Shown one piece after another: positions 8,544 through 29,473 of a DNA stretch of 64,000 nucleotides. Made by a program: the position numbers and the translations under genes. Below the pieces are notes generated by a model, which did no database searches, was not told the origin of the DNA, and was given only the letters and a program-made list of their open reading frames with translations. The stretch comes from Serratia marcescens (GTDB lineage Bacteria; Pseudomonadota; Gammaproteobacteria; Enterobacterales; Enterobacteriaceae): positions 186,001-250,000 of the forward strand of contig NZ_MJAO01000002.1 of NCBI RefSeq assembly GCF_001902635.1, in the 5' to 3' direction. Position 1 is the first letter of the stretch; each line of letters begins with the position of its first letter.

Positions 8544-8848
8544 GCAGTTATCCCATGATAATTCAGACTGAAAGACATCGAAGCGCCTTTTGATTGCGTG
8601 TGTTATTAATTAAGATTTAAATCTATAACTCACTAATCTTTTATTGCCGCCACGGCACCTAGGAATTTTAGATGAAAAATTAAATTTATCCGCCCGAACC
8701 GCGTTTTTTACGATGCTATTATGAATCTGGCAATCATATAAAAAAGAAAGAGATGCGCTTTTAATTTTAAGGGCGCTGGCTTGCTAATCCTTCACCCTTA
8801 ACTAAACTCTCTATCTATATCACAACCTCCTTGCCGGGAATGAAATGC
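8544..8848. promoter_or_regulatory. Divergent AT-rich control region of the polysaccharide locus
   Basis: This 305-bp AT-rich gap separates the divergent OpgC-like and GT2 genes. It holds a perfect 12-bp palindrome AGATTTAAATCT at 8613-8624 and several long A/T runs. A weak sigma70-like pair (TTGCTA at 8781, TAAACT at 8803) precedes the GT2 gene. I see no coding sequence. The palindrome is the best candidate operator. Confidence 0.45.
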
Positions 8849-10681
8849 ATGGCGCATTTTTATTTTTCATCTTTTGAAAAAAGGAGCCCCCCTGCACCGC
8901 TAAAAACCTCGCGGGCAATAGAGTTCCTTTGGCAAATTCTTGCCGTTGCCGCCCTGGTGGTCGGCGCCAACTACATTCGCTGGCGTTGGATGGCGTCGCT
9001 CAATTATGATGCCTTATGGTATGCCGTTCCGTTGGTGATTGCGGAAACCCTGGCCTATTGCGGTACGATCCTGTTTACCATCAATCTGTGGCAAGTGCGC
9101 GACGTCAAACGCCGGCCGCCGCCGAGCGACATTCGGCAATGCCTTGAACCCGATGACGAGGTAGCCCCCCGTCCGGTAAAAGTCGATCTGTTTATCGCCA
9201 CTTACTCCGAAGATACCGAACTGGTCAGGTTGTCGATTCAGGACGCCAAGCGAGTGACCTACCCCTTCCCGCTGGATTACCGCATACATGTGCTGGACGA
9301 CGGCAAGCGTCCTGAGATGCGGCGCGTCGCTGAACAGGAAGGCGTAAATTATCTGTCGCGCGAGAACAATATCGGCTTTAAGGCCGGCAATCTGCGCAAC
9401 GGGCTGGAGCATACGGACGGGGATTTTATCGTCATCTGCGACGCCGATACCCGTGTCTTCCCGTCCATTCTGACCGATACCCTGGGGTATTTCCGCGATC
9501 CTCTGGTGGCCTGGGTGCAAACGCCGCAATGGTTTTACGATCTGCCCGCCGGTAAACGTGTGCCGCAGTTGCTGAAGGACAGGTTCGGACGACCCGGCCA
9601 TATCGCCGGACGCGCGCTGGAAGGGCTCGTCGGCCCTCTCACCGTCGGCCACGATCCCTTTTTCAACGATCCCAAAATGTTTTACGACGTGATACTGCGC
9701 CGCCGCAACTGGGCCAACGCCGCCTTCTGTTGCGGCGCGGCGTCGCTCCATCGGCGCGAGGCGATCATGCAGAGCGCGCTGCGCAGCTATGCGCACGCCG
9801 TCGAAACGGAAATCGATCGCTATACCCGCGACGTGACGGATGTCGGGCTGCGCGACGAGCTGGGCCGGGCGATGAAGCCCCAGGTTGCGTTCGATACGGA
9901 ATTGACCCCCTATAAATTCCACGTGTCGGAAGATATTTACACCTCGATCGTGCTGCACGGCGATCCCGAGCGGCGCTGGCGTTCCGTCATGCATCCTGAG
10001 GTGGAGTCGCGCATGCTGTCGCCGCAAGACTTGTTGACCTGGATGATCCAGCGCTTCAAATATGCGGCGGGCTCGTTGGACATCCTGTTGCACGATGCGC
10101 TGTTCAGCGCGAAGAACTTCAAACTGAGCCTGGCGCAAAAACTGATGTACGGCACCACGTTCTGGTCCTATCTGGCCTGCATGTGGAATACGGTGTTCCT
10201 GATCTCGCCGTTGATCTATCTGTTTACCGGCATTCCGCCGGTTTCTGCTTACTCGCTGCCCTTCTACCTGCACTTCTTGCCGTTCTTCCTGCTGTCGGAG
10301 CTGGCTTTCATGTTCGGCACCTGGGGGATCTCCGCCTGGGACGGCAAAGCCTCCTACCTTTCACTGTTCTCCATGAATCTGCGGGCGCTGGATACGGTGC
10401 TGCGCGGTGAGAAGATCAAATTCCACGTCACCCCCAAAGAGCGCCAGCAGGGCAACTTCCTGACGTTGGTCAAACCGCAGCTGGCCATCATCGCTTTGAC
10501 GTTGCTTGGGCTGTTGTGGGGGGGCATACAGCTGTATCTCGGCAGGGTTAACGACCCGTCCGGCTACGTGATCAACATTTTTTGGGGGGGCGTTAACATC
10601 ATCGCCATGCTGCCGATGGTGCTCGCGGCCCTGTGGCGCCCCGCGCCGGAAACCCCTTCCGAGCAGCAGGAGGCCGGATAA
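8849..10681 (+). CDS. Membrane-bound GT2 polysaccharide synthase (cellulose synthase-like)
   Basis: About 610 residues. Two N-terminal helices are followed by a cytosolic GT-A domain with LDDG, D198-A-D200 (the metal/UDP-sugar DxD), TPQWFYD and S-E-D362 (the catalytic base region, normally TED), then four or more C-terminal helices. The motif expected as QxxRW reads Q401-R-F-K-Y. There is no C-terminal PilZ domain, unlike BcsA. The protein should polymerise a nucleotide sugar and translocate the glycan across the inner membrane; the glycan cannot be named. I placed the start at ATG 8849 because GGGA lies 9 bases ahead; ATG 8840 and TTG 8831 are alternatives. It is the first of seven tightly packed rightward genes. 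Confidence 0.85.
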   Translation: MAHFYFSSFEKRSPPAPLKTSRAIEFLWQILAVAALVVGANYIRWRWMASLNYDALWYAVPLVIAETLAYCGTILFTINLWQVRDVKRRPPPSDIRQCLEPDDEVAPRPVKVDLFIATYSEDTELVRLSIQDAKRVTYPFPLDYRIHVLDDGKRPEMRRVAEQEGVNYLSRENNIGFKAGNLRNGLEHTDGDFIVICDADTRVFPSILTDTLGYFRDPLVAWVQTPQWFYDLPAGKRVPQLLKDRFGRPGHIAGRALEGLVGPLTVGHDPFFNDPKMFYDVILRRRNWANAAFCCGAASLHRREAIMQSALRSYAHAVETEIDRYTRDVTDVGLRDELGRAMKPQVAFDTELTPYKFHVSEDIYTSIVLHGDPERRWRSVMHPEVESRMLSPQDLLTWMIQRFKYAAGSLDILLHDALFSAKNFKLSLAQKLMYGTTFWSYLACMWNTVFLISPLIYLFTGIPPVSAYSLPFYLHFLPFFLLSELAFMFGTWGISAWDGKASYLSLFSMNLRALDTVLRGEKIKFHVTPKERQQGNFLTLVKPQLAIIALTLLGLLWGGIQLYLGRVNDPSGYVINIFWGGVNIIAMLPMVLAALWRPAPETPSEQQEAG

Positions 10682-10683
10682 AC

Positions 10684-12048
10684 ATGGCGTGGAAGCACTC
10701 ATTGCTGCAGGCGCGCAGCTATATTGCGGTGATCATCGGCTTCCTGCTGGCGTTCGGCGTCGTGGTGTATGTCGAGACCCACATGCCGCCCGCGCCGGCG
10801 GAAAGCACCGAGCTGGCGCTGAGCGCCGATTTCCCCACGCTGCCCGCGCCACGGGCGCTGACCTTCGATGAAGCGGTCTGGGCGCGCATCGCCTGGCAAT
10901 ATTTCATCAACAATACTCAGCCTAATGGACTGGTGAACGCCATCGACAACCAGCCCTATACCACCATGTGGGATACCGGCAGTTATCTGATGGCGGCGAT
11001 CAGCGCGCAACGTCTTGGGATCATTACGCGCGACGAGCTGAATGCGCGGGTGAATGCCGTTCTGACAACGCTGTCGTCGTTGCCCCTGGCCGACGGGCAA
11101 CTGCCGGCGCTGTATTACCATACCCAGCGTTCAGTCAGGCTGAACAGCCTCAGCCAAAATGAAAACCAACCCGATTGGTCGGCCGTCGATATCAGCCGTT
11201 TGTTGATGGCGTTGGATATCGCCGCCTGGCTGTACCCGGAGCAGACCGAGGCGATCACCCGCCTGACCGCGCCCTGGCAGTTCGACGCCTTGTTCATGCA
11301 ACAAGAGCCGCAACAACCGTTGAATTTCCGCGTGGCCAAAAAATGGCTGCTCGTCACCCAAAGCAACCGCGGCAGTTACGGTTACCAGCTTTACGCCGCC
11401 AACGGATTGCGCCGCGTGAGCCCCCTGGCCGGCATCGTACTCAGTTCGCAACAGCCGTCGCCGCACGCCATCAGCATTGACGGCATCCGTATACCCTACG
11501 ACAGCCTGGTTAAAATCGGCAAGGTCGATCATCCGGTCGTCACCACCATGCCCTATTTGCTGACCGGCCTGGAGGCTGGGTTCGACATCAACTCGGCGGA
11601 AATCAGCTGGCGGGTGATGAAAGTGCAGGAAAGCCGCTATCGCAGCCACGGCGATTACGCCTATGTGAACGCCGATTATGAAGAGCAATTGCCCCGCTTT
11701 ATCGACGAGACAGTCATCAGCCGTTTCCCGGCGCTGATCGACAAATCGCGTGCGGAGATCAAAGAAGCGGCGCTACAGCTGTCAACCAAATCGGTGTTCG
11801 GTTGGTACGCCCTGTTTCGCACGCCGTGGAGCGACGAGATGCGCCGCCGCGCCGGCGTCTTGTTCGAGCCGGGGCGCGGCTGGTATGACGGCATCATCGC
11901 CGCCAACGGGCAGCAGAGCCGGATGATCGGTGCCAATACCAACGCCCTGATATTGGAAAGCCTGGTCTATATCGCGCAAGGTCCGCTGTTCTGCCAAAAC
12001 TGCGCCCCCGCTTCCCCTTTGAATCTCGCCGACGGTCAACGGCCGTAA
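10684..12048 (+). CDS. DUF3131 protein 1, membrane-anchored
   Basis: The 454-residue protein starts with an inner-membrane anchor (about residues 11-31), and the rest should be periplasmic. It carries the DUF3131 signature: AWQYFINNTQP, then TTMWDTGSYLMA, a central LTGLEAGFD and a C-terminal NTNALILESLVY. DUF3131 proteins are thought to have an (alpha/alpha) toroid fold like glucoamylases and to occur with beta-glycan synthases; their chemistry is not established. The C-terminus has a C-x2-C pair. The ATG at 10684 follows an AGGAGG site and lies 2 bp after the synthase stop. An in-frame GTG at 10633 would overlap the synthase and is unlikely. Confidence 0.85.
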   Translation: MAWKHSLLQARSYIAVIIGFLLAFGVVVYVETHMPPAPAESTELALSADFPTLPAPRALTFDEAVWARIAWQYFINNTQPNGLVNAIDNQPYTTMWDTGSYLMAAISAQRLGIITRDELNARVNAVLTTLSSLPLADGQLPALYYHTQRSVRLNSLSQNENQPDWSAVDISRLLMALDIAAWLYPEQTEAITRLTAPWQFDALFMQQEPQQPLNFRVAKKWLLVTQSNRGSYGYQLYAANGLRRVSPLAGIVLSSQQPSPHAISIDGIRIPYDSLVKIGKVDHPVVTTMPYLLTGLEAGFDINSAEISWRVMKVQESRYRSHGDYAYVNADYEEQLPRFIDETVISRFPALIDKSRAEIKEAALQLSTKSVFGWYALFRTPWSDEMRRRAGVLFEPGRGWYDGIIAANGQQSRMIGANTNALILESLVYIAQGPLFCQNCAPASPLNLADGQRP

Positions 12049-12067
12049 CCAGTCATAAGGAGCCATT

Positions 12068-13645
12068 ATGCCTCACCATTATCTCATCAGGCCGTTTGTC
12101 ACGCTCGCCGCATTAATCCGGCGCGTGCTGTGCGGCTGCTTGTTGTTGTTGCTGATGGCACCCGCGGCCGTAGGCGATACCCAGTTGCCCGCCGCCGCCT
12201 ATCCGCAGCGCCACGGCGACCTGACGCCGCGCGAGCAAGCCATGGCGGCCAAGGCCTGGCAATACTTCGTCACCAACTACCAGCCGGCTACCGGGCTGGT
12301 CAACGCCGTCAACAACTACCCGTCGACCACCATGTGGGACAGCGCCTCCTATCTGGCCGCGCTGACGGCCGCCCGCGAACTCGGCCTTATCGACAAGGAG
12401 CAGTTCGATCAACGTCTGATCAAGTTTCTCGCCACGCTGAACACCGTGCCGCTGTTCCAAAATCAGATGCCCAACAAGGCGTATAACACCATCACCGCGC
12501 AAAAGGTCGACTACCTCAACAAGCCCGGCGAGATCGGTTTTTCATCCATTGATATCGGCAGAATGCTGCTGTGGTTGAAAATCATCAAAGAGCGCTATCC
12601 CGAATTCGCCAATGACATCGACAACGTCGTGCTGCGTTGGGATTTCAGTCATATCATCGACGATTGCGGCACGCTGTATGGCGCGAACCTGGACGCCAAC
12701 AAACAGCCGGTCTATGTGCAGGAAGGCCGGTTGGGTTATGAAGAGTATGCCGCCAGCGGTTTCCAACTGTGGGGATTCTCCACCTGCCAGGCTTCCCGCG
12801 CGGAGCCTTATCAACTGGCGGAAATCTACTGTGTTCTGGTGCCCTATGACTCGCGCGATCCGCGCACCACCAGTCAGCATAACTACGTGGCCACCGAACC
12901 CTATGTGCTGCACGGGCTGGAGATGGGCTGGGACACCAGCGACGATCGCAGCGCCGATCTCGGCAAACACAGCCATCCCTGGATGCAAGACTTCGCCAAT
13001 CGGGTCTATCAGGTTCAGGAAAACCGCTACCAGATTACCGGCCGCCTGACGGCGCGTTCCGAACACCAGCTCGACCGCGCGCCGTACTTCGTGTACGACA
13101 CGGTCTATTCCGACGGTTTCGACTGGAACACCATCACGGATAAGGGGGAGTACGTGCCGGACACCGCCGCTATCTCCCTCAAGGCGGCGCTCGGGATGTG
13201 GAGCCTGTGGCAATCCCCGTATACCGATCGGCTGCTCGACGTGATTGAGAATGCCAATGAAAAAGACAAAGGCTTCTACGAAGGCCTGTATGAAAACGGC
13301 GCCGGGCCGATCCGTGAGTTCACCGCCAACAACAACGGCATCATGCTTGAAGCCCTGCTGTTCAAAAAGCAGGGCCGCCTGTTGAAGTTCAATACCAATG
13401 ACCAAAGCAACAGCAAGTACGCGCCGGCGCTGTGGGATAAAACGCTGGTGAACGTGTTTGACGACAAAAACACGCCGTTTAACCGGCCTTTCATCACGCC
13501 GGACGCCAACCTGAAAACCTGGTGCCAGCAAACGGGGGTCGCGCTGCGCAACGCGCCGTCCTGCAAAGCCTGCAAATGTCCGCAGTGTCAGAATGACGCC
13601 CCCATGAAACTGCCTCCGGTAGCGACATCATGCTTAAAACCCTAA
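12068..13645 (+). CDS. DUF3131 protein 2, secreted, cysteine-rich C-terminus
   Basis: This is a 525-residue paralogue of the preceding protein, with a hydrophobic export signal (about residues 20-36) that ends near AAVGD. It repeats the family pattern: AWQYFVTNYQP, STTMWDSASYLAA, LHGLEMGWD and NNNGIMLEALLF. Its tail carries a cluster C-x2-C-x-C-x2-C (CKACKCPQC) plus a further Cys, which suggests disulfides or a metal site. A likely role is trimming or modifying the polymer in the periplasm, inferred only from family and context. AAGGAG precedes the ATG; its last 16 bases overlap the next gene. Confidence 0.85.
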   Translation: MPHHYLIRPFVTLAALIRRVLCGCLLLLLMAPAAVGDTQLPAAAYPQRHGDLTPREQAMAAKAWQYFVTNYQPATGLVNAVNNYPSTTMWDSASYLAALTAARELGLIDKEQFDQRLIKFLATLNTVPLFQNQMPNKAYNTITAQKVDYLNKPGEIGFSSIDIGRMLLWLKIIKERYPEFANDIDNVVLRWDFSHIIDDCGTLYGANLDANKQPVYVQEGRLGYEEYAASGFQLWGFSTCQASRAEPYQLAEIYCVLVPYDSRDPRTTSQHNYVATEPYVLHGLEMGWDTSDDRSADLGKHSHPWMQDFANRVYQVQENRYQITGRLTARSEHQLDRAPYFVYDTVYSDGFDWNTITDKGEYVPDTAAISLKAALGMWSLWQSPYTDRLLDVIENANEKDKGFYEGLYENGAGPIREFTANNNGIMLEALLFKKQGRLLKFNTNDQSNSKYAPALWDKTLVNVFDDKNTPFNRPFITPDANLKTWCQQTGVALRNAPSCKACKCPQCQNDAPMKLPPVATSCLKP

Positions 13646-15012
13646 CGCTGATCGTCTCCATCGTCGTTGCGCTCGCGCTGGTCGTACTGCTGGGCGTCAT
13701 GGCACGCCCTGACGGCGCCGGCCCGATGTGGGAACGCTGGCAGCATCAGTCTCGTCGCGGCGCACTGACCGAAGAACAGCGGCAATGGGCCGAGGTCGCC
13801 TGGCGCTATGTGCAAAACAACACGCAGCCGGGAACCGGGTTGGTGAACGGCAAAGATCGCTACCCGGTCGTCTCGCTGTGGAACATCGGCGACAGCCTGA
13901 TTGCAGTGACTGCCGCGCGGCGTTTGAACCTGATCCCGCAACAAGAGTTCGACGCCCGCCTGGCGGCGCTGCTGACGACGCTCGATCGTTTGCCTTTAAC
14001 CCGCATCGGAGCGCCGGGCGCGCTGTACGACGCCGCCAATGGCACATTCAGCCAGAACGGCGCCACCACCAGCGAAGCGCAAGGGATGGCGCGCTTGCTC
14101 GGCGGCATGCGTCTCACGGCGCAAAGCTTTCCCGAATACCGCACCTTTCTTGAACGCATCGCGCTGCGCTGGAACTTCTGTGAACTGCTGAACCAAGACG
14201 GGCAGCCGCTTGACGGCCGGGCGCAAAACGGCGATTGGCGCAGTACGGCGGCCGTCGATGTCGGTTACGCCGACTACAGCCGCGCCGCTTTTGGCTTGTG
14301 GGGGTTTCCGCATTCGTCAACGGGGGCAACGCCGCACAAAACGGCGATTATCTATGGCGTGCCTGTCGAGGTGACGGCGCGCGATCCGCGCCTGACCGGC
14401 GCGCCCGCCGGCATCGAAAGCACCCCCTACTTGCTCACCGGCCTCGAGATGGGATGGGCAGCGCCTCATTCCGGCAGTGACAGCGACGCCGGCGTGATGC
14501 AGCGTGCGCAGCGTCTTTACCAGGTGCAGGAAATGCGCTGGCGCCAAGAGAAAATCCTCACCGCCCGGGCGCAATATTCACGCAGCAGTGCACCGTGGGA
14601 GGTATATGACAGTCTGTTCGCCAACGGCTATCCCTGGAATACCCTGGCGGACGACGGCCGTTACGCGCCCGAGCTGGCGCTGCTCTCGACCCGCGCCATT
14701 TTCGGCCTGTGGGCGCTGTGGGATACCCGCTACACCGACGCCCTGATGCAGCTGGGGCGGCTGCATCAGGATGACAAACGCGGGTGGTTCGAAGGCCGTT
14801 ACGAAGCGAACGGCGGCTATAACACCACCTTCACCCTGACGACCAACACCGTCGTGCTGGAAGCCTTGCTGTTCAAACAGAACCGCGGCCCGCTGCTGCA
14901 GGCGGCGCTCCAGGACGGTTATCTCGATGCGCGCATGAAAGACATTTTCAATTGGCCTCGCCACTGTTTGCCGCAGGAGCGTCATCCGCTCCCCAGCGCA
15001 AAAGGAGGATGA
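13630..15012 (+). CDS. DUF3131 protein 3, membrane-anchored
   Basis: The third tandem paralogue (460 residues) has an N-terminal anchor at about residues 5-24. It keeps AWRYVQNNTQP, LTGLEMGWA and NTVVLEALLF. The motif seen as T-T-M-W-D in the first two is V-S-L-W-N here, so an acidic residue is replaced by Asn. If that Asp is catalytic, this copy may be inactive or have another specificity. It starts inside the end of the previous gene, so translation is probably coupled. The three copies are clearly diverged, which indicates old duplications rather than a recent amplification. Confidence 0.85.
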   Translation: MLKTLTLIVSIVVALALVVLLGVMARPDGAGPMWERWQHQSRRGALTEEQRQWAEVAWRYVQNNTQPGTGLVNGKDRYPVVSLWNIGDSLIAVTAARRLNLIPQQEFDARLAALLTTLDRLPLTRIGAPGALYDAANGTFSQNGATTSEAQGMARLLGGMRLTAQSFPEYRTFLERIALRWNFCELLNQDGQPLDGRAQNGDWRSTAAVDVGYADYSRAAFGLWGFPHSSTGATPHKTAIIYGVPVEVTARDPRLTGAPAGIESTPYLLTGLEMGWAAPHSGSDSDAGVMQRAQRLYQVQEMRWRQEKILTARAQYSRSSAPWEVYDSLFANGYPWNTLADDGRYAPELALLSTRAIFGLWALWDTRYTDALMQLGRLHQDDKRGWFEGRYEANGGYNTTFTLTTNTVVLEALLFKQNRGPLLQAALQDGYLDARMKDIFNWPRHCLPQERHPLPSAKGG

Positions 15013-15013
15013 C

Positions 15014-15466
15014 ATGGGGATTAATTACGAGGAATTGTTCAATAACAGCTACAGCCGAATCACGCAGGGAGACAAAGGCGATCGGTTTTTCGCCCATTTT
15101 TATGCGTTGTTCATCGGCAGCACCGAAGATATCAACACGCCGGGCAGCATCGCCCAGCGGCTGGAAAAACAAAAAATCATCTATAAAACCTTTTTCTATA
15201 TGCTTTCGGTCGCCAACACCCACATCGTGGCGGATTATTTGGTGCAGGTGACGCAGGAAGGCAGCCCGCAAAGCCTCAATCTGCCGCCGTCGATTTATGC
15301 GCTGTGGCGCAGAGCCGTGCTGCAAACCGTGCGCGATCTCGATCCCGAATGCGATGAGGAGATCCTGACCGCATGGGCCATCGTGCTGGCACCGGGCCTG
15401 GAGTTCATGCGGCGCCAGGCCGAACTGCATCACAATCCCGCCGCGCAATCGGGGCTGCCAGGATGA
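15014..15466 (+). CDS. Small globin-like protein coupled to the hybrid kinase
   Basis: A 150-residue protein with no signal peptide or membrane segment. Its pattern suggests a globin fold: [12 protein letters not shown] (helices A/B), [14 protein letters not shown] (helix E), [19 protein letters not shown] (helices F-G) and [15 protein letters not shown] (helix H with the conserved AW). Aligned on the LxLPPxxY segment, the position normally held by the heme-ligating proximal His is Gly83 (codon at 15260). It may therefore be a non-heme sensor globin, as in RsbR-type stressosome proteins. A strong AAGGAGG site precedes it. Its stop overlaps the start of the hybrid kinase (ATGA), so the two are probably partners. 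The globin assignment is my inference. Confidence 0.55.
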
Positions 15467-18153
15467 ACAAGATGCCGCTGCTCTCCGCGCTCGACGCGCC
15501 GCCGATCGCGCTGGCCATCTATGATGCCGAAGAAAAACTGAGCTACTGGAATCAGCGCGTGCTCGATTATTACCCCGGCCTGGAAAGCTGGCTGCGCGTC
15601 GGGGTGACGCTCGCCGACGTCTTGCACATGATGATCGACATCAGTTACCCCTCGCTGCATGACGACGCCCAAAAGCGCATGGTGGCCTCTCTGCTGGCCA
15701 GCTATCGTCAACACGACCATTACGAAGTCCGACGCATCACCGATCGGACGTTGTACATCCAACACCATCGCACCCCGGAAGGCGGCGTGATCAGCACCCA
15801 CACCGACATCAGCCGCTATGCCGACGTCATCAAAGCCGAGCAGCGGTTGCACAGCGATTTTATTCTGGCGGCGGAAACGTCGCGCATCGGCATCTGGGAG
15901 TGGGATTTGGCGACGGACGAGCTGCAGGTCAACGACGCGCTGCTGCTGTTGCTGGATATTCCGCGCACGCAACCGACGCTTTCCGGCGCCCTGTGGGCGC
16001 AGGCCTTCCCCGCCGACGACCTGGCGTACTTCAATCAGAGCATCCATCAGGCGAGCCGGGCGACCCTGCCGGTGTTCGCCTGCGAAGCGAAAGTCCAGCG
16101 CGCGGACGAGCATTACGGCTGGGTATCGCTGCAGGGCCAGATCGTGCAACAAGGCATGCAAGGTGAAGTGCAGCGAGTGATCGGCACGCTGCAAGACATC
16201 ACGGAACACAAGGAGGCGGAGGCCTCGTCTCGGCAGTCGGTGGAAATAGCCAAAGCGGCCAACCAGGCGAAAAGCGAGTTTCTCGCCAATATGAGCCATG
16301 AAATCCGCACGCCGATGAACGGCATTCTCGGTATGACTCAGCTCTGCCTGGAGACCGAGTTGAATCAGGAACAGCGCGACTACATCACGATGGCGTACAG
16401 CTCCGCGCGCGCTCTGTTGAAGATCATCGATGATATCCTGGACTTCTCCAAAATCGAAGCGGGCAAGATCAGCCTGGATCCGGAAGATTTCGCCCTACGG
16501 CCGCTGGTGCAGGAGATCACCCGCCCGCTGATGCCCAAGTTCTCCGAGAAAAACGTCGAGCTGCTGGTGGATATCCACCCCGACGTCGCCGACGAGATAT
16601 ACGGCGATCCGCTGCGCCTGCGCCAGATATTGACCAACCTGATCGGCAACGCGCTCAAGTTTACGCCCGCGGGCGAAGTGATACTGCGGATTGCGCCGGT
16701 CGCCAACGATCCGAGCCGTCTGTTGTTCAGCATCCGCGACAGCGGTATCGGCATCGCCGCCGACAAGCAGAAGGTCATTTTCGAATCATTCAGCCAGGCG
16801 GACAATTCGACGACGCGAAAGTACGGCGGTACCGGGCTGGGGCTGACGATCTCCGCCAGGCTGGTCGAGATGATGGGCGGCGAATTGCAGGTCGACAGCG
16901 ATGTGGGGCGCGGCAGCTGTTTCTATTTCTCGCTGCCGGTGTTGTCAGGCGCGCGCAGAAAAAGCGTCAGCTGGCCGCAAACGTTGGCGGGCATCGAGGT
17001 TCTGGTGGTGGACGACAACGCCACCAATTTGCGCCTGTTGTCCGACCTGCTGCGCAATATGGGGTTGAAACCGGTCACCGTCGGTTCGGGGAAAGAGGCG
17101 CTGGCACTGATGAACAACCGCGCCCCCTTCCCGTTGGTGCTGCTGGACGCGCAAATGCCGGAAATGGACGGCATGGCGCTGGCGCTGGAGATCATGTCCA
17201 CCCCGTCGTTACGGCACTGCACGCTGATCATGCTGAGCTCGACGGGAAGCCGCATCGATAAGGCCGTGCTGAAAAAAGTGGGCGTCTCCTTTTTCCTGAC
17301 GAAACCCATCGATGCCGGAGAGCTGTTTGCCGCGATGGAACAGGCGCTGGTGCCGATGCTGCCGAGCGTGCCCGCCGCTGTGGCGGCAACGGAGGCGCCG
17401 CCGACCGCCGCCGCCGCTCCTCATTACCATTTGCTGATCGCCGAAGACAACCCGGTCAACCAAAAGCTGGCGCTCAGCTTCATCGGCAAACTGGGGCACA
17501 GCGCCGACCTGGCCGGCAACGGCGCCGAAGCGCTGAGCCTGCTGCAAACGGCGCGCTACGACGTCATCTTAATGGATCTGCAGATGCCGGAAATGGACGG
17601 CGTCGAAGCGGTGCAGGCGATTCGCCTGGCGGAGCGACAGCAGCCGACGGGCGAGCCGCCGCAGCGGATCATCGCCATGACCGCGCACGCCATGAAAGGC
17701 GACAGAGAAAAATGCCTGCAGCTCGGCTTTGACGGTTATATCGCCAAACCGATCCTGCTGGACAAGCTGGCCGAAGAAATTGCACGTGTGATCGCCGCCG
17801 CGCCTGCCCCGGCGCCCGCGTTCGACTACCCACAGGCACTCGCGCAGTTGGACAACGATCCGGCGCTGTTCAACGAACTGGCGGCGATGTTCATCGACGA
17901 ACTGCCCAGATTGTTGAACGCGTTGCAGGCGGCGATCGCCGCCCAGGCATTCGATGAGATCAAACGCTGCGCGCACCGCCTCAAGGGCGAAACGCTGCAC
18001 TTTGCCGGTTCGGCGCTGGCACCCTGCCTGCAAACCATTGAGCTGGCCGCCGGCGCCCAAGAGTTCGCGTCGATAAGCCGTCTGCAGCCGCAGTTGACGC
18101 CGCTGAGTCATCAGTTGCGCGACGCACTGGTCGCCATCATGGAGGCAACATGA
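15463..18153 (+). CDS. Hybrid histidine kinase PAS-PAS-HisKA-HATPase-REC-REC-Hpt
   Basis: 896 residues, no evident membrane segment, so a cytosolic sensor. In order: a PAS_7-like domain (about 5-120), a second PAS (about 130-250), HisKA with phospho-acceptor H279 ([12 protein letters not shown]), an ATPase domain with GTGLGL, receiver 1 (D562), receiver 2 (D705) and a C-terminal Hpt domain with H838 (AHRLKGE). It can run a full phosphorelay to an outside receiver. The nearest unpaired receiver is the REC-PP2C protein of the opposite arm, which makes it the obvious candidate. The start at 15463 overlaps the stop of the globin-like gene; an upstream ATG at 15373 is out of keeping with that coupling. 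Confidence 0.9.
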
Positions 18154-20333: not shown

Positions 20334-20345
20334 AACGGCGTTGCG

Positions 20346-22121: not shown

Positions 22122-22125
22122 TCGC

Positions 22126-24006
22126 TCACAGTTCGCAGATGGCATAAGTGCCTTTACCGGCGGATTTCGCCTGGTACATCGCGCCGTCGGCGCTGGCCAA
22201 CAACATTTCCGCCGTGACCTCTCCGTTCGAAGAGATCGCCGCGCCAATACTGGCGGACAGGCTGACTTTCTGCTGGCCAATCTGCGAGATATCGGCCAGC
22301 CGCGCCAACACGTTTTCGCAAAATTCGTTGACCTCGCGCCGCGGCTCTGTCAACGGCCACAGGATCACCGTGAACTCGTCGCCGGCCAGGCGCGATACGC
22401 TGTGGCGCTCGCCGGCGCAGGCGCTGAGCAATTTGGCGAACGTTTTCAGGATCAGATCGCCGAAGTCGTGGCCATAGCTGTCGTTCAGGGTCTTGAAACC
22501 ATCGAGATCGATGAACAGTAGCGCCATCTGCCGCTGGTGGCAGCAGGACTGCAGCGTACCCGACAACCGCCGCAGAAATGCGCGGCGGTTGGTCAACCCG
22601 GTCAGCATGTCGTGCGTGGCGTCATATTCCAAGCGCTGCTGCAGACGCTTCAATTCGGTGATGTCCATGGCAAGAATGTAAAAACCCTGCGCCTCGCACG
22701 GCACCAGCGTGGTGTGGATCATCAGCAGCCCCTGCTGGGTCTGCAATTCGTTCTCGAAGCTGACCATTTCACCCGCCAGAGCCCGCTCGATCATCGGCTT
22801 GGCCATCTGGTACACACTTTCGCCCATAAACTCACGTACCGTCATACCCTGCAGGCTGGTCTCTTCCAGACCGAACCAGGTCTTATAGGCGCTGTTGGCA
22901 AACAGATAGCGTTCATTGGCGTCGATCTGGCTGATCAACGCCGGCATGTTGTCGGTAATGGCGCGCAGGCGCTCTTTCTCCGTGCTGAGCTGATATTCGG
23001 CCAGCACCCGGGTTTCTATCTCTTCATTGAGCTTTTTGACGGCCACACTCAGCTCATGCGTGCGAATTTCGACGCGTTCCTCCAGCTCATGCTGCAACGA
23101 GAACAGATCGGCCTCCGCCACCTTGCGCTCGCTGATATCGACGATGACGGAAATGAAATGATCAGGCTTGCCGTTTGGCAGCCGATTGAGCGCCACCGTC
23201 AGTTGCACCCAGACGATCGAACCGTCGGCGCGGAAATAGCGTTTTTCCATCGAATAGGTGCTGATCTCGTTTTTCAGCAGCTGTTGCAGATACTCCAGAT
23301 CGGAATTGAGATCGAGCGGATAAGTGATGTCCTGAAAGGTACGATCCATCAGCTCGCGTTCGGAGTAATGCAGCATTTCGCAGATGCGCGGATTGACCCG
23401 CAGCCAATACCCCTGCAGCGAGACCAGCGCCATCCCCACCGCCGCCTGGGAGAAGGTCTGTTCGAACAACGCCTCCGTGCGCTGCAGGTCGGATTTCAGA
23501 TTTTCGGTGTAGACGTGGCGCTCAATGCTCTGCAGATACTCCTCCACCACGGCGGCGAAGTCATGCAGGTCGGCTAACTTATCCTGAGGAAACGGCTGCG
23601 GGTGGCTGTCGATAATACACAGCGTGCCAAGCGGCAAGCCGTCGAGCGACAGCAGCGGTTGCCCGACGTAAAAACCGATCCTCGGGCCCCCGACCACCAG
23701 CGGGTTATCGAAAAAGCGCGGGTCTTTGGCGGTGTCGGGTACCACCAGGGTTTCGCGTTGCAAAATCGCATGGCCGCAAAACGAGATATTGCGCGGCGTT
23801 TCCCGGGCGTCCAGCCCGTAGCGCGATAGAAACCATTGGCGATCCCGATCGATCAGTGACACCAGCGCAATGGTCACGCCGAAATATTTCGCGGCCAGAC
23901 GCGTGATGCGGTCCAGCTTTTCCACTGAGGTCGAATCCAGCACATTCAGCGAATTCAATACCGAGAGGCGTTCGGCTTCGTTTTCGGGGAAGCATGGCTC
24001 GAGCAT
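22126..24006 (-). CDS. GAF-PAS-PAS-GGDEF diguanylate cyclase
   Basis: 626 residues. A GAF domain (about 25-155), two PAS domains (about 170-290 and 325-450) joined by a coiled-coil segment (DLFSLQHELEERVEIRTHEL), then GGDEF. The active-site signature is A541-G-D-E-F, a functional variant in other cyclases. The RxxD inhibitory site upstream of it is absent, so product inhibition is not expected. It should make c-di-GMP from GTP. By analogy with HsbD of Pseudomonas aeruginosa, it may be switched by the STAS protein encoded two genes upstream. AGGAG precedes the ATG. Confidence 0.88.
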   Translation of the reverse strand: MLEPCFPENEAERLSVLNSLNVLDSTSVEKLDRITRLAAKYFGVTIALVSLIDRDRQWFLSRYGLDARETPRNISFCGHAILQRETLVVPDTAKDPRFFDNPLVVGGPRIGFYVGQPLLSLDGLPLGTLCIIDSHPQPFPQDKLADLHDFAAVVEEYLQSIERHVYTENLKSDLQRTEALFEQTFSQAAVGMALVSLQGYWLRVNPRICEMLHYSERELMDRTFQDITYPLDLNSDLEYLQQLLKNEISTYSMEKRYFRADGSIVWVQLTVALNRLPNGKPDHFISVIVDISERKVAEADLFSLQHELEERVEIRTHELSVAVKKLNEEIETRVLAEYQLSTEKERLRAITDNMPALISQIDANERYLFANSAYKTWFGLEETSLQGMTVREFMGESVYQMAKPMIERALAGEMVSFENELQTQQGLLMIHTTLVPCEAQGFYILAMDITELKRLQQRLEYDATHDMLTGLTNRRAFLRRLSGTLQSCCHQRQMALLFIDLDGFKTLNDSYGHDFGDLILKTFAKLLSACAGERHSVSRLAGDEFTVILWPLTEPRREVNEFCENVLARLADISQIGQQKVSLSASIGAAISSNGEVTAEMLLASADGAMYQAKSAGKGTYAICEL

Positions 24007-24047
24007 GTTGACTCCTGTTACGTCTCCAACGGGCCGTTCGCCGCCTT

Positions 24048-24500
24048 TCAGGCCTGCTCGACCGTCGCGTTTTTAATCAGAATCAGCTCGTTGCGTCCGG
24101 CGGTGGAACGGTAACGAACATCGTCCATCATGGAATAAATCAGTATCAATCCGATTCCGCTTTCTGGCCAACTTTCCAGGGTGCCGGATTCGGGGAATGT
24201 CCGCTGTTTCTCCGCCAAAGCCTGCAGAATCTCCGGCGGTATCGGACGCCCGCCGTCGACCAGCGTGAGGCTGAGCGCGCCGGCAGAAAGTGACATAGTC
24301 ACATCAACCGCTTGCCGGCCATCGTGATTGACACCATGCCTGACGATGTTGCTGAATGCCTCACTGGCCGCCAGATCCATCTGGTATATCGCCGCCGGAT
24401 CGAGCGCGAACGGCGCCACGAACCGTTGGAGGGCGCTGCTCAGCGCATCCAGGTTTTCAAGCGTCGCGCCCAGGCGCAACGCGGTGGTGGCAGTCTCCAT
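24048..24500 (-). CDS. RsbW-like serine kinase / anti-sigma-type ATPase
   Basis: A 150-residue GHKL ATPase of the anti-sigma-factor kinase class. The N box is EAFSNIVRH, the G1 box LVDGGRPIPPE and the G2 box ESGIGLILI. Such proteins phosphorylate a serine on a partner STAS protein. I chose ATG 24500 because GGAGG lies directly upstream; a TTG at 24539 would overlap the STAS gene. It lies 25 bp downstream of the STAS gene and completes a partner-switching trio with the PP2C phosphatase. No sigma factor is encoded nearby, so the output partner may be the adjacent cyclase. Confidence 0.88.
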   Translation of the reverse strand: METATTALRLGATLENLDALSSALQRFVAPFALDPAAIYQMDLAASEAFSNIVRHGVNHDGRQAVDVTMSLSAGALSLTLVDGGRPIPPEILQALAEKQRTFPESGTLESWPESGIGLILIYSMMDDVRYRSTAGRNELILIKNATVEQA

Positions 24501-24525
24501 CAGGGCCTCCCGGCAATGCGCCGCG

Positions 24526-24867
24526 CTATTCGTGGGCAAGGATATCCAACGCGTCCTGACGCGTAGCGCCGATGGTAAAGATACGATCCATTCGGGTCAG
24601 CTTGAACAGGTGCTGGATATTGCCGTTCAGCGAACACAGCACCAGCTCCCCTTTACCGTTCAACGTTTTGAGTATCGAAACCAACGCGCCCAGGCAGCTA
24701 CTGTCGATAAAATCGACCCGGCTGAAGTCGAGCAGCACATGATTGCCGTTGCGCGCGATCACCTCCAGCACCTGCTGCTTGAACGCCAGCGCGACAGAGG
24801 CGTCGAGACGGCGCACCAGCGGCACCACGATCTCAATGTCATTTTCGGTGTACATTTCAAAATTCAT
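24526..24867 (-). CDS. STAS-domain anti-sigma factor antagonist
   Basis: A 113-residue single STAS domain of the SpoIIAA/RsbV type. The phosphorylation loop is VDFIDSSCLGALVSI; by alignment with SpoIIAA the target is Ser57. The neighbouring kinase should phosphorylate it and the neighbouring PP2C phosphatase dephosphorylate it, making it the switch of the module. ATG 24867 is preferred because AGGA lies a few bases upstream; an ATG at 24879 would add four residues. It is the counterpart of HsbA in the Pseudomonas HptB pathway, where the STAS protein controls both a sigma antagonist and a diguanylate cyclase. Confidence 0.9.
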   Translation of the reverse strand: MNFEMYTENDIEIVVPLVRRLDASVALAFKQQVLEVIARNGNHVLLDFSRVDFIDSSCLGALVSILKTLNGKGELVLCSLNGNIQHLFKLTRMDRIFTIGATRQDALDILAHE

Positions 24868-24894
24868 GGTATTCCTCATCGATGTTGTCTGGAA

Positions 24895-26136
24895 TCATTC
24901 GGTGCGTTCGATCGCCACCAGCGAGATATCGTCATTAAAGAAACGGCCATACTCCGTGAGCGCGTCGGCTTCCGGCCGGCTCCAATTCACCAGTTCGCGC
25001 TCAACGCATTGAAAAATTTCCGACCGCGCCCGCAGCCGCTGCTCAATCAACAGTTGCTGCAACCGCGTTTCGCCATAGAGCTCGCCCGCCCGGTTTTCGC
25101 ATTCACTGACGCCGTCGCTGTACAGATAGAGCCTGTCGCCCGGCGCCAGCGAAAATTCGCAGCTCTGGTAGTCCGACTGCGGAAACAACCCGACGGGGAC
25201 ACCACCGAGGCCGACGGTGCACAGTTCTCCGTCCCGGCGAATAATGAAAGGCGTGGGATGCCCGGCCTGGCATAGCGCGCCCTGCCCGGTTTGAGTGTCG
25301 ATAAACCCGTAGATGAGGGTGAAATAGCTGGTGATCTCTTCGTTATCCAGGCAAAAACGCCGGTTGAGCGCCGCCACCACCTGATGCGGCGCGACCACGT
25401 TCCCTTCAACGATCAGCAGCCGTTCATCGACCCGCCCGGTGAGAAACTCCCTGGCAACCGCCAGGGAGAGCATGGCGGCGCTGACCCCATGACCGGCGAC
25501 GTCGATGCAGTAAAACGCCAGATGACGGTTATCGAGCGCGAAATAGTTCAGCAGATCGCCGGAAACGTACGCGGAAGGCAAAAACATCCAGTCCGCCTGA
25601 TAGCCGCTGAACGCCAGCGCGGCCGCAGGCAACACGCTGCGCTGCAGCCGCGCGGCGGCCTGCAGATCTTGCTCAATCTGCCGGTAGGCGCTGCTCAGCC
25701 GTTGGTTGCGCACCGCCAACGTGCTTTCCAGCGTCAGGATGCGTTCGGCGGCATGCAGCCGGGCGCGCAGCTGGCTTTGATTGACCGGTTTGGAGAGGAA
25801 ATCGTCAGCGCCGGACTCCAAGCCCTGCACCAGATCGTCGATCGACTGGCGTGCCGTCACCAAAATGGCATAGATGTAATGGCCGAAATCACGCTGGCGA
25901 ATTTGGCGGCACAGCGCCACGCCGTCCATTTGCGGCATTTCCCAGTCGCTGATGACGGCATTGATGGTTTGCGTTTCCAACAGCGCCAGCGCATGCACGC
26001 CGTCCTGCGCCTCCAGCACCCGGTAGCCCCATTTGCTCAGCATGCTGCCGAGCAGATGCCGGTAACTCCTCGAGTCATCGACAATCAGGATGGTCAGAGA
26101 GGACGCACTGTCTTTATCCGTCGATTCCACAGTCAC
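24895..26136 (-). CDS. Response regulator with PP2C (SpoIIE/RsbU) phosphatase domain
   Basis: 413 residues. An N-terminal receiver (phospho-acceptor D64 in VISDWEMPQMDG) is followed by a helical linker (about 130-180) and a PPM/SpoIIE-type phosphatase domain with CIDVAGHGVSAAM, LYSDGVSE and the C-terminal metal-binding N-D-D. Phosphorylation of D64 should control dephosphorylation of the STAS protein. The layout corresponds to HsbR of P. aeruginosa except that the kinase part is a separate gene here. The start appears to be GTG at 26136, 6 bp after the stop of the beta-barrel gene. The hybrid kinase on the opposite arm is the likely phosphodonor. Confidence 0.88.
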   Translation of the reverse strand: MTVESTDKDSASSLTILIVDDSRSYRHLLGSMLSKWGYRVLEAQDGVHALALLETQTINAVISDWEMPQMDGVALCRQIRQRDFGHYIYAILVTARQSIDDLVQGLESGADDFLSKPVNQSQLRARLHAAERILTLESTLAVRNQRLSSAYRQIEQDLQAAARLQRSVLPAAALAFSGYQADWMFLPSAYVSGDLLNYFALDNRHLAFYCIDVAGHGVSAAMLSLAVAREFLTGRVDERLLIVEGNVVAPHQVVAALNRRFCLDNEEITSYFTLIYGFIDTQTGQGALCQAGHPTPFIIRRDGELCTVGLGGVPVGLFPQSDYQSCEFSLAPGDRLYLYSDGVSECENRAGELYGETRLQQLLIEQRLRARSEIFQCVERELVNWSRPEADALTEYGRFFNDDISLVAIERTE

Positions 26137-26142
26137 ACTCGC

Positions 26143-27030
26143 TTAAAACGGGAGCGTCCAGCTCAGGTTGATCGTCCCGCTACGAAAATTGGCATTGGCG
26201 TCTCTGCGCCACGGGTAGCGCGTGCCGGTGTAGTTGTCATAATGTATGGAAACCGCGCCCGGCAAATAACTGGAAACATAGCCGATGCTGTAGGTGTAAT
26301 CGTAATCCCAGGGTTGCTGTTGCTGGTTGTCGGGGTAATAGAACGACGACACGCGCAGAAAGTAGTGTTGCAGCAGCGTGTAGCCGCAGCTGGCCAACAG
26401 CGAACTTTTGTTACGTTTGATGTCGCCGTCGGCCAGGGAAAAGTAGCGCGGGACATAGCTGTACCCCACCTGGCAGATCAGCGCGTCTTCTTTGTTGATC
26501 AACAGGTGCTTTTCGAGGCTGTCCGGCAGAGCGAACTTATAGGCGAAGGTCCAGGCGCCTTGTTCAAAATAGGTGTGTCTGGCGCCGCTGGTGGTATAAA
26601 AATGGTTATTTTCGTTATAGTTGCCGTATACCAGGCTGAAAGTGCCCGGATGCCAGTCATCGTAGCCGAAGCTGTAGACGAAGTCGGTGCTGTATTTGTT
26701 GGTATCCTGCAGCGGCACGCGCACCGTCATGTTGACGAAGAAATAGCTCAGTGGCGAATACTGCATACTCAGCAACAGACGCTGATTGTACTTATCACGG
26801 ATCTCGGAAGAATCGCGCCCCGTAGGCACATAAACCTCATGCCGCGCCAAATCGGAGTTATAGGTTAACGCCGTGGAAAAAGACGACTCGCTGCCGGAAA
26901 ACAGACGCGCCCAGGGGCTGGTGAACACCCGCACCGCCGGCTGGTTAGGCGCGGTGTCCGCCGCCCAGCCGCAAACGCTGAACAGACAGCCGGCAAGCGG
27001 GGACAGGCGCCGCAAAAAACGGGTGGTCAT
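26143..27030 (-). CDS. Outer-membrane beta-barrel protein of unknown family
   Basis: 295 residues with a signal peptide (about 1-23, ending CGWAA). The rest is rich in alternating aromatic/polar strands (YFFVNMTVRVP, FSLVYGNYNENNHFYT, AVSIHYDNYTG) and ends in Phe (INLSWTLPF), the usual C-terminal signature for BAM-dependent outer-membrane barrels. I count roughly 12 strands. I do not recognise the family. Placed between the phosphorylase and the signalling genes of this locus, it could be the polymer's exit pore or a surface anchor. It begins 1 bp after the phosphorylase stop codon, so translation is coupled. Confidence 0.75.
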   Translation of the reverse strand: MTTRFLRRLSPLAGCLFSVCGWAADTAPNQPAVRVFTSPWARLFSGSESSFSTALTYNSDLARHEVYVPTGRDSSEIRDKYNQRLLLSMQYSPLSYFFVNMTVRVPLQDTNKYSTDFVYSFGYDDWHPGTFSLVYGNYNENNHFYTTSGARHTYFEQGAWTFAYKFALPDSLEKHLLINKEDALICQVGYSYVPRYFSLADGDIKRNKSSLLASCGYTLLQHYFLRVSSFYYPDNQQQQPWDYDYTYSIGYVSSYLPGAVSIHYDNYTGTRYPWRRDANANFRSGTINLSWTLPF

Positions 27031-27031
27031 A

Positions 27032-29473
27032 TCAGTAATTCATCCCCCAAATATCCCTGGCATAGCCACGAATGGTGCGATCGCTGGAAAAACCGCCCAT
27101 GCGCGCGATCGTCAACAGCGCGCGACGATGCCACTGTTCCGGCTCGTCGAAATCGGTCGCCGCCCGCTGCTGGGCCAGCCGATAGCTCTCGAAATCTTGC
27201 AGGTGGCAGAAATAGTCACTGGTGGTCAGAATGTGACGCAGCGGGGCAAACAGCTCGGTATCGGCCGCGAATAGCCCCGACGTCAGCGAGTCCACCACGC
27301 GGGCGATACGCGGGTTGTTGCGATAATGATCGCCGCCGTGGTAACCGTTGTGCCTGATGGCGTCGATTTCCTCGGCGGTGGCGCCGAACAGGTAAAAATT
27401 GCTCTCCCCAACCGCATCGCGGATCTCGATGTTCGCCCCATCCAGCGTGCCGATGGTCAGCGCGCCATTGAGCGCGAACTTCATGTTGCTGGTGCCCGAG
27501 GCTTCGGTGCCGGCGGTTGAGATCTGCTCGGACAGGTCGGTCGCGGGAATAATGCGTTCGGCCAGCGAGACCTTATAGTCCTCCAGGAACACCACCTTCA
27601 GTTGGCCGCCGACGCGCGAGTCTTGGTTGATGCGCTGCGCCACAGCGCCGATCAGTTGAATGATCAGCTTGGCCACCGCATAACTGGGTGCGGCCTTACC
27701 GGCGAACAGATGCACTTTGGGCGCGATGGTTTTACCGCCCTCCTTGATCTCCAGATAAAGGTCTATCACGTGGAGGATGTTCAGCAATTGCCGTTTATAT
27801 TCATGGATCCGCTTCACCTGGCAGTCGAACATCGCCATCGGATCGAGATGGATACCGTGCCGCTGGGCGATCAGCTGGCACAACGCAACCTTGTTGGCGC
27901 GTTTTATCGTGCGTATCTCGTCGATCGCGCCGATGTCGTCGGCCAATTTTTCCAGGCCGGCCAGCTGTTGCAGATCAGTCGGCCATTCATCCCCCAGGTG
28001 TTGATGTAAAAACGCCGCCAACGGCGGGTTGGCCTGCTGTACCCAGCGGCGCGGCGTCACGCCGTTAGTCTGGTTAATGAACTTTTCCGGTGAGATAAAA
28101 TAAAAATCCGGCACCAGATTTTTCTTGATCAATTCCGAATGCAGCTTCGCCACGCCGTTAACCCGATGGCTGCCGACGATCGCCAGGTTGGCCATGCGCA
28201 TCTTCTTATCGTTCTCGCCTGCAAACAGCGAAAGCGACGGCAACAGCTGCGGTTGATCGGGCCAACGTTCGGCGACCTCCGCCAGAAAACGCCGGTTAAT
28301 CTCATAAATGATCTGCAGATGGCGCGGCAGCAGCTTTTCGAACAGGCTCACCGACCAGGTTTCCAGCGCTTCAGGCATCAGCGTGTGGTTGGTGAAAGCG
28401 CAGGTTCGCTGCGTGATGTCCCAGGCTTGCTCCCACGGCAGTTGATGCTCATCGACCAACAGACGCATCAGTTCTGCCACCGCCAGGGCGGGATGGGTGT
28501 CGTTAAGCTGGATCGCCACCCGCTCAGGCAACGCCGTGATAGGCGCCTCTTCAGCGGCGTAATCGGCCAGCACATCCCGCAGCGTGCAGGCGACCAGGAA
28601 ATATTCCTGCGTAAGGCGCAGTTCCTTGCCGGTCAACGCCTCATCCGCCGGGTAGAGTATTTTCGAGATATTCTCGGAGGCGATTTTCTCGCTCACCGCC
28701 TTGATGTAGTCGCCCCGGTTGAAGATGTGAATATTGAAGGAGTCGGAAGCCAACGCGCTGTAAAGGCGCAGTTTATTGGTCGCCGAGCCTTGATAGCCGG
28801 AAACGAAATAGTCGTGCGGGACACCGACGATAATCCGCCAGTCCATCCACATCGGGTTGTAGTTGCCTTCGGTGTCTTCCCCGTGCTCCACGCGGCCGCC
28901 GATGGGGATCAACATCTGTTGGGCATGGTGTTCCACCAACCACGGCGAGTGCGTGGAGTGCCAGTCATCCGGCTGTTCGACCTGCCTGCCGTCGTGGAGC
29001 GCCTGTTTGAACAGCCCATACTCGTACTTGATGCCGTGCCCGGAGGCGGCAATATCCAGGGTGGCCATCGAATCGATGAAACAGGCGGCCAAACGCCCCA
29101 ACCCGCCATTGCCTAACGCCGCATCGGGTTCTTCATCCACGATACTGTCGAAGTCGAAGCCTAACGCGGCGACCGCTCGCCGCATATTCGTCAACAAGCC
29201 GGTATTGATCAGGTTATTGCGCAACGACTGGCCCAGTAAGAACTCCATCGACAAATAATAAAGACGTTTCTTTTTTTCCGCCCGCTGTCTTTGGTGCGTA
29301 TTCAGGAAGTCATCGTATTGATAATGGCGAATGGTCAGCGCAACAGCATTGAAAATATCCCTGTCAGTTGCCGCTTTCAAAGGGACACAAAGTTGATATT
29401 TAAGGTTATTTTCAATCTGTGCGCTCAGATCGCTAACGCTCGGCACATTGGCTACAGGCTGTTCTGGTTTCAT
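27032..29473 (-). CDS. Glycogen/alpha-glucan phosphorylase (GT35)
   Basis: 813 residues, the normal size for GlgP. It has the family's N-terminal YYLSMEFLLGQSL, the GNGGLGRLAAC glycine loop and the pyridoxal-phosphate site with K665 in EASGTSNMKF. It releases glucose-1-phosphate from alpha-1,4-glucans. It is not next to other glg genes; instead it is the first gene of a seven-gene leftward operon carrying a beta-barrel and partner-switching and c-di-GMP genes. A simple idea is that it feeds glucose-1-phosphate toward UDP-glucose for the polysaccharide synthase. AAGGAAG lies 4 bases before the ATG. Confidence 0.92.
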   Translation of the reverse strand: MKPEQPVANVPSVSDLSAQIENNLKYQLCVPLKAATDRDIFNAVALTIRHYQYDDFLNTHQRQRAEKKKRLYYLSMEFLLGQSLRNNLINTGLLTNMRRAVAALGFDFDSIVDEEPDAALGNGGLGRLAACFIDSMATLDIAASGHGIKYEYGLFKQALHDGRQVEQPDDWHSTHSPWLVEHHAQQMLIPIGGRVEHGEDTEGNYNPMWMDWRIIVGVPHDYFVSGYQGSATNKLRLYSALASDSFNIHIFNRGDYIKAVSEKIASENISKILYPADEALTGKELRLTQEYFLVACTLRDVLADYAAEEAPITALPERVAIQLNDTHPALAVAELMRLLVDEHQLPWEQAWDITQRTCAFTNHTLMPEALETWSVSLFEKLLPRHLQIIYEINRRFLAEVAERWPDQPQLLPSLSLFAGENDKKMRMANLAIVGSHRVNGVAKLHSELIKKNLVPDFYFISPEKFINQTNGVTPRRWVQQANPPLAAFLHQHLGDEWPTDLQQLAGLEKLADDIGAIDEIRTIKRANKVALCQLIAQRHGIHLDPMAMFDCQVKRIHEYKRQLLNILHVIDLYLEIKEGGKTIAPKVHLFAGKAAPSYAVAKLIIQLIGAVAQRINQDSRVGGQLKVVFLEDYKVSLAERIIPATDLSEQISTAGTEASGTSNMKFALNGALTIGTLDGANIEIRDAVGESNFYLFGATAEEIDAIRHNGYHGGDHYRNNPRIARVVDSLTSGLFAADTELFAPLRHILTTSDYFCHLQDFESYRLAQQRAATDFDEPEQWHRRALLTIARMGGFSSDRTIRGYARDIWGMNY

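Follow-up and report, generated by a model that had tools for sequence, protein, structure and literature searches.

A 64,000-nucleotide stretch of Serratia marcescens DNA (assembly GCF_001902635.1, contig NZ_MJAO01000002.1, positions 186,001 to 250,000 of the forward strand; hereafter the window) carries a gene cluster of ca. 22 kb that is probably a locus for an uncharacterised sugar polymer. It is highly likely to be a polysaccharide locus and very likely to contain a partner switch fed by a hybrid histidine kinase. An earlier note, made from the sequence alone, had proposed that polysaccharide genes are here joined to a hybrid kinase and a PP2C/STAS/RsbW switch, and the proposal is supported by the presence of an array of three DUF3131 genes in 18 genera and by the recurrent linkage of the other parts. 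A more specific reading, in which production and export of a glucan-type polymer are coupled to glycogen breakdown, may be right in outline, its chances being a little short of even. This reading was built on computed evidence, namely gene content, conserved linkage, the modelled fold of a DUF3131 protein and the neighbourhood of a STAS gene and a phosphorylase gene.

All fourteen genes of the earlier description were found in place and in the orientation reported, and re-measured coordinates bore out their order, their tight spacing and the 12 bp that separate the two arms. The rightward arm comprises genes for a family 2 glycosyltransferase (GT2), three DUF3131 proteins, a globin-like protein, the hybrid kinase and a family 2 glycoside hydrolase (GH2), with successive gaps of 2, 19, −16, 1, −4 and −4 bp. 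The leftward arm, read in the direction of increasing coordinates, comprises EAL and GGDEF genes followed by those for an RsbW-type kinase, a STAS protein, a REC-PP2C phosphatase, a putative beta-barrel and a phosphorylase, with gaps of ca. 4 (taking the EAL frame from its first ATG), 41, −14, 15, 6 and 1 bp. Pfam agreed with the domain assignments for all but the globin-like protein and the putative barrel, which are treated below. The span originally delimited, 8849..29473, left out a conserved member of the locus, the gene for an OpgC-type acyltransferase (7341..8543, minus strand), which diverges from the GT2 gene. No promoter or terminator was detected in a scan of positions 8400–9000.

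Of 392 family genomes, 41 gave a DUF3131 match, and in 31 of them, belonging to 18 genera, three DUF3131 genes formed an array within ca. 4 kb. The other ten gave a weak partial match only. Nine of these weak matches sit in open frames of 2855–2890 residues (G434, G560, G542, G430, G385, G559, G431, G501 and G396), which match the first ca. 90 positions of DUF3131 and are probably cyclic glucan synthases. Within the genus, two of 30 genomes, including that of the window, carried the array. In a sample of the order, 10 of 197 genomes gave a match: the window's own genome, two weak partial ones and seven genomes of three other families, each with four DUF3131 genes. Related clusters are also present in Vibrio sp. 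HDW18 and two Rhodobacterales.

Thirty-nine loci, 32 from the family (window included) and seven from other families, were scored for gene content at thresholds of our choosing. GT2, the three DUF3131 and GH2 were present in 32/32 family loci, OpgC and the putative barrel in 30/32 each, the hybrid kinase in 29/32, REC-PP2C and STAS in 27/32 each, the RsbW-type kinase in 24/32 and the globin-like protein in 22/32; one miss (G405) is due to a contig break, its barrel and PP2C genes lying on the next contig. By contrast, the phosphorylase was found in 6/32 and a GGDEF protein of the window's type in 2/32. In the seven loci of other families, GT2, DUF3131, barrel, REC-PP2C and STAS were always present and GH2 twice, and no OpgC, globin-like protein, hybrid kinase, RsbW-type kinase or phosphorylase was recovered at these thresholds. 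In the family the usual layout is divergent: switch, barrel and OpgC point leftward, and the genes from GT2 to GH2 point rightward. A convergent layout with a whole switch, as in the window, was otherwise seen among the scored loci in G210, G301 and Vibrio sp. HDW18.

Across the 392 family genomes, the barrel was found in 31, the array in 31 and both in 30. The barrel is missing from one array genome, G516, and the one genome with a barrel but no array, G388, has stop-interrupted barrel fragments next to a decayed locus (L162). REC-PP2C matched at E 1e-60 or better in 35 genomes, of which 30 carry the array. Fisher values for co-occurrence were tiny, in a test that ignores shared descent; the association exceeds chance, since the array, with recurring companions, is found across 18 genera. 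GT2, DUF3131, barrel, REC-PP2C and STAS recur together in family loci and in the seven genomes of three other Enterobacterales families. The contrary possibility considered beforehand, that the two arms occur independently in related genomes, was partly realised: five of the 35 REC-PP2C genomes lacked the array, REC-PP2C lies apart from the array in Edwardsiella, and one of 31 array genomes lacked it. Of these five, G413, G483 and G265 hold globin, kinase, RsbW, STAS, PP2C and phosphorylase genes together with no GT2, OpgC or barrel match in the stretch, G413 retaining a piece of the third DUF3131 gene at 44% identity. G388 is a decayed full locus, and G354 has a shortened PP2C gene with STAS and RsbW genes, no phosphorylase match and a STAS protein devoid of the DSS motif. 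In the Edwardsiella genomes G444, G569 and G510, polymer genes and barrel occupy one site and PP2C, STAS, RsbW and phosphorylase another.

The three DUF3131 proteins (10684..12048, 12068..13645 and 13630..15012, all on the plus strand) matched Pfam with 260, 433 and 269 bits, respectively. The first and third have an N-terminal hydrophobic anchor, the acidic positions of the first are relaxed, and the second is the most constrained copy. The nearest named relative of the third comes from Serratia nevei (86%), and a search in 'distant' mode found no DNA match to the second gene in E. coli. The second protein was modelled, and its model showed an (alpha/alpha)6 fold closest to the beta-1,2-glucan enzymes of families GH144, GH162, GH189 and GH192–194, as in the SGL clan. 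Judging by this model, in which the full fold was obtained for the second copy alone, DUF3131 very likely belongs to the beta-1,2-glucan fold clan. Asp/Glu residues at positions 162, 219, 261 and 285 of the second copy are invariant; the residues of XcSGL to be matched in a member of the clan are E239, Y367 and F286. When DUF3131 alignments were compared by hhalign with cyclisation domains taken from eight loci (L150–L157), the second copy scored a probability of 85%, the first one of 68% and the third one of 4%, and the match was convincing over an N-terminal stretch only. The likeness to the enzymes described in PMC12102758 consists of the modelled fold and the N-terminal sequence profile; unlike the giant-synthase domain in the available text of that source, the DUF3131 units of the locus are encoded as three individual proteins next to a BcsA-like GT2, and their activity is predicted. 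By analogy with these enzymes, the chances that the polymer carries a beta-1,2 linkage appear about even.

The properties of the synthase and of the GH2 enzyme bear on a different view, that the polymer is cellulose or a beta-mannan and that the DUF3131 proteins act as general glycan hydrolases of (alpha/alpha)6 fold, which we consider possible but rather unlikely. The GT2 protein (8849..10681, plus strand), present in 39/39 loci, is cellulose-synthase-like and shares with the Bcs synthase a GT2 core with DxD and ED motifs, DAD and SED being retained in 49/49 relatives. However, QxxKY (48/49 relatives) replaces the QxxRW found in BcsA (QRIRW), the protein gave no PilZ match in Pfam at E 0.001, and neither BcsB nor BcsC was among the Pfam matches of the locus, which by PilZ and QxxRW is not a Bcs system. 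Nor does it coincide with the genes for osmoregulated periplasmic glucans, with which it shares an OpgC-type transferase: OpgG and OpgH were not among its Pfam matches, and GT2 compared with MdoH gave 18 bits. The GH2 glycosidase (18150..20333, plus strand) has a signal-like N terminus, and its NE and EFG motifs are retained in 40/40 relatives. Its nearest solved structure is a beta-mannosidase, a likeness that does not settle the sugar. The OpgC-type protein, to which NCBIfam assigned no family, matched PF10129 with 173 bits and is probably a succinyl transferase.

The protein encoded at 26143..27030 (minus strand) had been called a beta-barrel. The beta-rich sequence and C-terminal Phe agree with an outer-membrane barrel; the window protein gave no match in Pfam and no profile match in the PDB, the fold is unproven, and an AlphaFold model built from five sequences (pLDDT 35) was unusable. 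A second copy of this gene was seen in Edwardsiella G569 (L167 7238–8110), distant from the polymer genes.

The regulatory genes show the hallmarks of partner switching. The hybrid kinase (15463..18153, plus strand) has the architecture PAS-PAS-HisKA-HATPase-REC-REC-Hpt, with the SHE-RTP motif in 34/34 relatives. A serine phosphatase of the REC-SpoIIE/PP2C type (24895..26136), a STAS protein with a DSS phosphosite motif retained in 47 of 48 aligned rows (24526..24879) and an RsbW-type serine kinase of the HATPase_c_2 family (24048..24539), all on the minus strand, make up the switch, phosphatase and kinase having conserved motifs. A search of the locus genes with Pfam revealed no cognate sigma factor. 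The globin-like protein of 150 residues (15014..15466, plus strand) had been identified as such by the earlier note, and this holds by sequence: it matched 1tu9/PA3967 at E 1.6e-6 as a single protein and 3.4e-11 as a profile, though Pfam gave no match for the window protein. A heme globin was considered and rejected, since the position aligned to the His of 1tu9, which we take to be the heme ligand, holds His in 0/26 relatives; L008 has a His one residue off. Non-heme globin domains serve as sensors in stressosome RsbR proteins. By analogy, the globin-like protein is probably a non-heme sensor, suiting a sensor role in the switch.

Two known systems resemble this arrangement, and by analogy with both the locus would work in a like manner. 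The HptB-HsbR-HsbA-HsbD system of Pseudomonas aeruginosa (PMC6482189), to which the earlier note had likened it, has in common a phosphorelay to a REC-PP2C protein, a STAS protein and a cyclase within reach; the logic is the same, including a single-domain STAS protein with a phosphorylatable Ser. The likeness fails in that a kinase domain is part of HsbR itself, whereas REC-PP2C and the RsbW-type kinase are separate genes in the window, and by this one-protein criterion the locus is not an HsbRAD member. The targets named in PMC6482189 are FlgM, RpoS and HsbD, and its available text mentions no polysaccharide genes or phosphorylase. In the Syp system of Vibrio fischeri (PMC4517449), a phosphorelay and a partner switch (SypE-SypA) are likewise built into a polysaccharide locus. 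By contrast, SypE is kinase and phosphatase in a single polypeptide, the syp locus has 18 genes, and the portions of that source at hand mention neither DUF3131 nor a phosphorylase.

The first gene of the leftward arm encodes a glycogen/alpha-glucan phosphorylase (27032..29473, minus strand; Pfam), the third paralog of the genome. In a set of 38 genomes that we selected, locus-type phosphorylases were 58–100% identical to that of the window and other paralogs at most 49%. The locus type was found in 13 of the 392 family genomes, nine of which also have the array. In 13/13 a STAS gene of the locus family lies within 2.5 kb of it, accompanied by PP2C and RsbW genes in 12 and alone in G367. In that genome ca. 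0.5 Mb separate the STAS-phosphorylase pair from the array; an EAL gene adjoins the pair, and an ABC transporter and a GGDEF gene lie farther out. On the STAS tree, the phosphorylase-side STAS of G367 grouped with those of Serratia, G301, G413 and Vibrio sp. HDW18 (support 100/99), on a long branch whose exact place is unsure, and the array-side STAS of G367 was placed elsewhere; the Vibrio genome, a member of that group, gave no phosphorylase match. Presence of the phosphorylase required four changes on the tree versus 12.3 in shuffles, a result that near copies favour. Among 575 plasmid records matching the locus-type phosphorylase, none did so at 60% identity or more. That STAS acts on the phosphorylase is a tentative proposal, with about one chance in three of being right.

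The gene set had been thought to lack a described counterpart. In fact, it is already listed as block 3b of Klebsiella pneumoniae (cellulose synthase, three DUF3131, OpgC, hybrid kinase, anti-sigma factor and antagonist; PMC12974863), although no function is given there in the text available. Block 3a of that source contains an EAL protein and glycogen/PTS genes; linkage disequilibrium places 3a, 3b and 3c in one group despite the separate location of 3b, which is among the blocks with the strongest ties to a main axis of K. pneumoniae population structure. The blocks figure in the portions at hand as markers of population structure, with neither function nor mechanism. In K. pneumoniae the glycogen gene is elsewhere on the chromosome, whereas in the window the phosphorylase heads the switch operon. 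The surroundings of the G367 pair match what is described for blocks 3a/3c. A K. pneumoniae record aligned with the G367 site at 93% identity over 24% of the query, and its annotation there lists a phosphodiesterase and a substrate-binding protein, with no phosphorylase or STAS. We infer that G367 is a Klebsiella and that its phosphorylase pair corresponds to the glycogen gene of PMC12974863.

These data also speak to another explanation, that, as in Syp, the switch controls nothing beyond the synthase or transcription, and that the phosphorylase is a metabolic passenger carried in the operon and supplying glucose-1-phosphate. In its favour, 21 of the 31 array genomes have REC-PP2C but no locus-type phosphorylase, and stretches of Paracoccus and Octadecabacter have PP2C-STAS genes beside GT2/DUF3131 without a phosphorylase. 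SypA controls a polysaccharide biofilm by a mode of action called unknown in the available text of PMC4517449. Against it stand four genomes that retain switch and phosphorylase without intact polymer genes, Edwardsiella, which keeps PP2C, STAS, RsbW and phosphorylase apart from the polymer genes, and G367, which holds a bare STAS-phosphorylase pair. On balance, we regard this explanation as possible but doubtful.

The earlier note had placed cyclic di-GMP (c-di-GMP) at the output of an HsbRAD-like switch, with the GGDEF protein turning on the synthase. The window encodes a GAF-PAS-PAS-GGDEF cyclase (22126..24006) and a GAF-EAL phosphodiesterase with an intervening degenerate GGDEF domain, whose match is weak at 31 bits (20346..22121), both on the minus strand, and in the window and in G210 the GGDEF and EAL genes follow RsbW in the same gene run. 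In G483, GGDEF (67%) and EAL (55%) genes accompany the switch, and polymer genes are absent. In G392 (L074 16529–20000, L075) a CHASE-PAS hybrid kinase takes the place of the kinase and is followed by a REC-GGDEF protein, and in the G388 remnant (L162 12649–18182) a REC-GGDEF protein is again present together with an equally long kinase; GGDEF matches lie at the same distance in G467 and G588. In G367 the EAL gene adjoins the STAS-phosphorylase pair, the GGDEF gene being ca. 6 kb off. On the other hand, a GGDEF or EAL gene lies within 5 kb of other locus genes in only 4/39 loci, and at ca. 5.1 kb in three more (G392, G467, G588), the GT2 gave no PilZ match, and the cyclase outlives the locus, as described next. 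Because linkage is rare and the cyclase survives loss of the locus, yet the pairing recurs in G483, G392 and G388, c-di-GMP is a recurrent companion and the two genes are non-core; as the core output it was set aside and appears improbable.

The locus lies between LysR and OYE genes (window 7344–29837). These flanks were sought in 10 locus-free genomes of the genus, OYE being found in seven and LysR in three, and the site was examined in those three (L171, L172, L173); G210, included in the search for flanks, carries the locus itself. In all three, the cyclase gene is intact at the site with 92–93% identity. L173 also retains the 3′ end of RsbW (31 residues, 58% identity), and L171 and L172 show shorter DNA matches. 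Recent insertion, considered given that two of 30 genus genomes have the array, was set aside: because the locus-free sites retain the cyclase and the RsbW remnant, loss from an older copy fits better than recent gain. Most likely, the locus was once present in these Serratia and later lost, leaving the cyclase behind. In L171, enolase-like, DHH, AraC-type and DUF2000 genes occupy the rest of the site.

Several further copies were noted. On Pantoea stewartii plasmid pDSJ10 (L146), IS66 lies inside the switch and OpgC is in two pieces; this copy is decaying. A Salmonella enterica IncFIB plasmid (L147) carries a complete-looking locus of the divergent form beside a ccdAB-type pair. Outside the family but within the order, one genome has a GH16 glycosidase gene near its array (L132 4711–5502), and sugar-1-phosphate nucleotidyltransferase genes adjoin STAS or lie near the locus in relatives (L074 6327–7490, L132 13301–14425 and L009 5756–6658, the last GalU-like).

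In the scheme coupling the polymer to glycogen, the globin-like protein and the PAS hybrid kinase would sense an internal signal, and the kinase, through its Hpt domain, would phosphorylate or dephosphorylate REC-PP2C. This phosphatase and the RsbW-type kinase would set the phosphorylation state of STAS, which in one state would bind and set its clients, the dedicated phosphorylase and the polymer machinery. The phosphorylase would free glucose-1-phosphate from glycogen, and GT2 would build the chain across the inner membrane from a nucleotide sugar. Once exported, the DUF3131 proteins, above all the second, would remodel this chain by hydrolysis or transglycosylation, like their structural relatives acting on beta-1,2-glucans; OpgC would succinylate the polymer, GH2 would trim it and the putative barrel would release it. 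The direction of the phosphorelay, the STAS clients, the beta-1,2 linkage, the cell location of the enzymes and the export route are what we infer in this scheme. Its boldest form is speculative and rather unlikely: a sigma-factor-free partner switch would directly gate metabolism, STAS binding, according to its phosphorylation, the phosphorylase and the synthase complex, glycogen would become an exported succinylated beta-1,2-glucan, and selection would hold together the Klebsiella halves ca. 0.5 Mb apart.

An uncharacterised polysaccharide locus recurs in 31 of the 392 family genomes, on plasmids of Pantoea and Salmonella and, according to the available text of PMC12974863, in K. pneumoniae. 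Its DUF3131 fold, whose characterised relatives act on beta-1,2-glucans, makes the chemistry of the polymer open to direct test, and the neighbouring phosphorylase is a concrete candidate target for a STAS protein. Coupling of the two would give the long-range linkage seen in Klebsiella a physical basis, and the company that the switch keeps with an extra phosphorylase suggests that stored glycogen may be turned into surface polymer on command.

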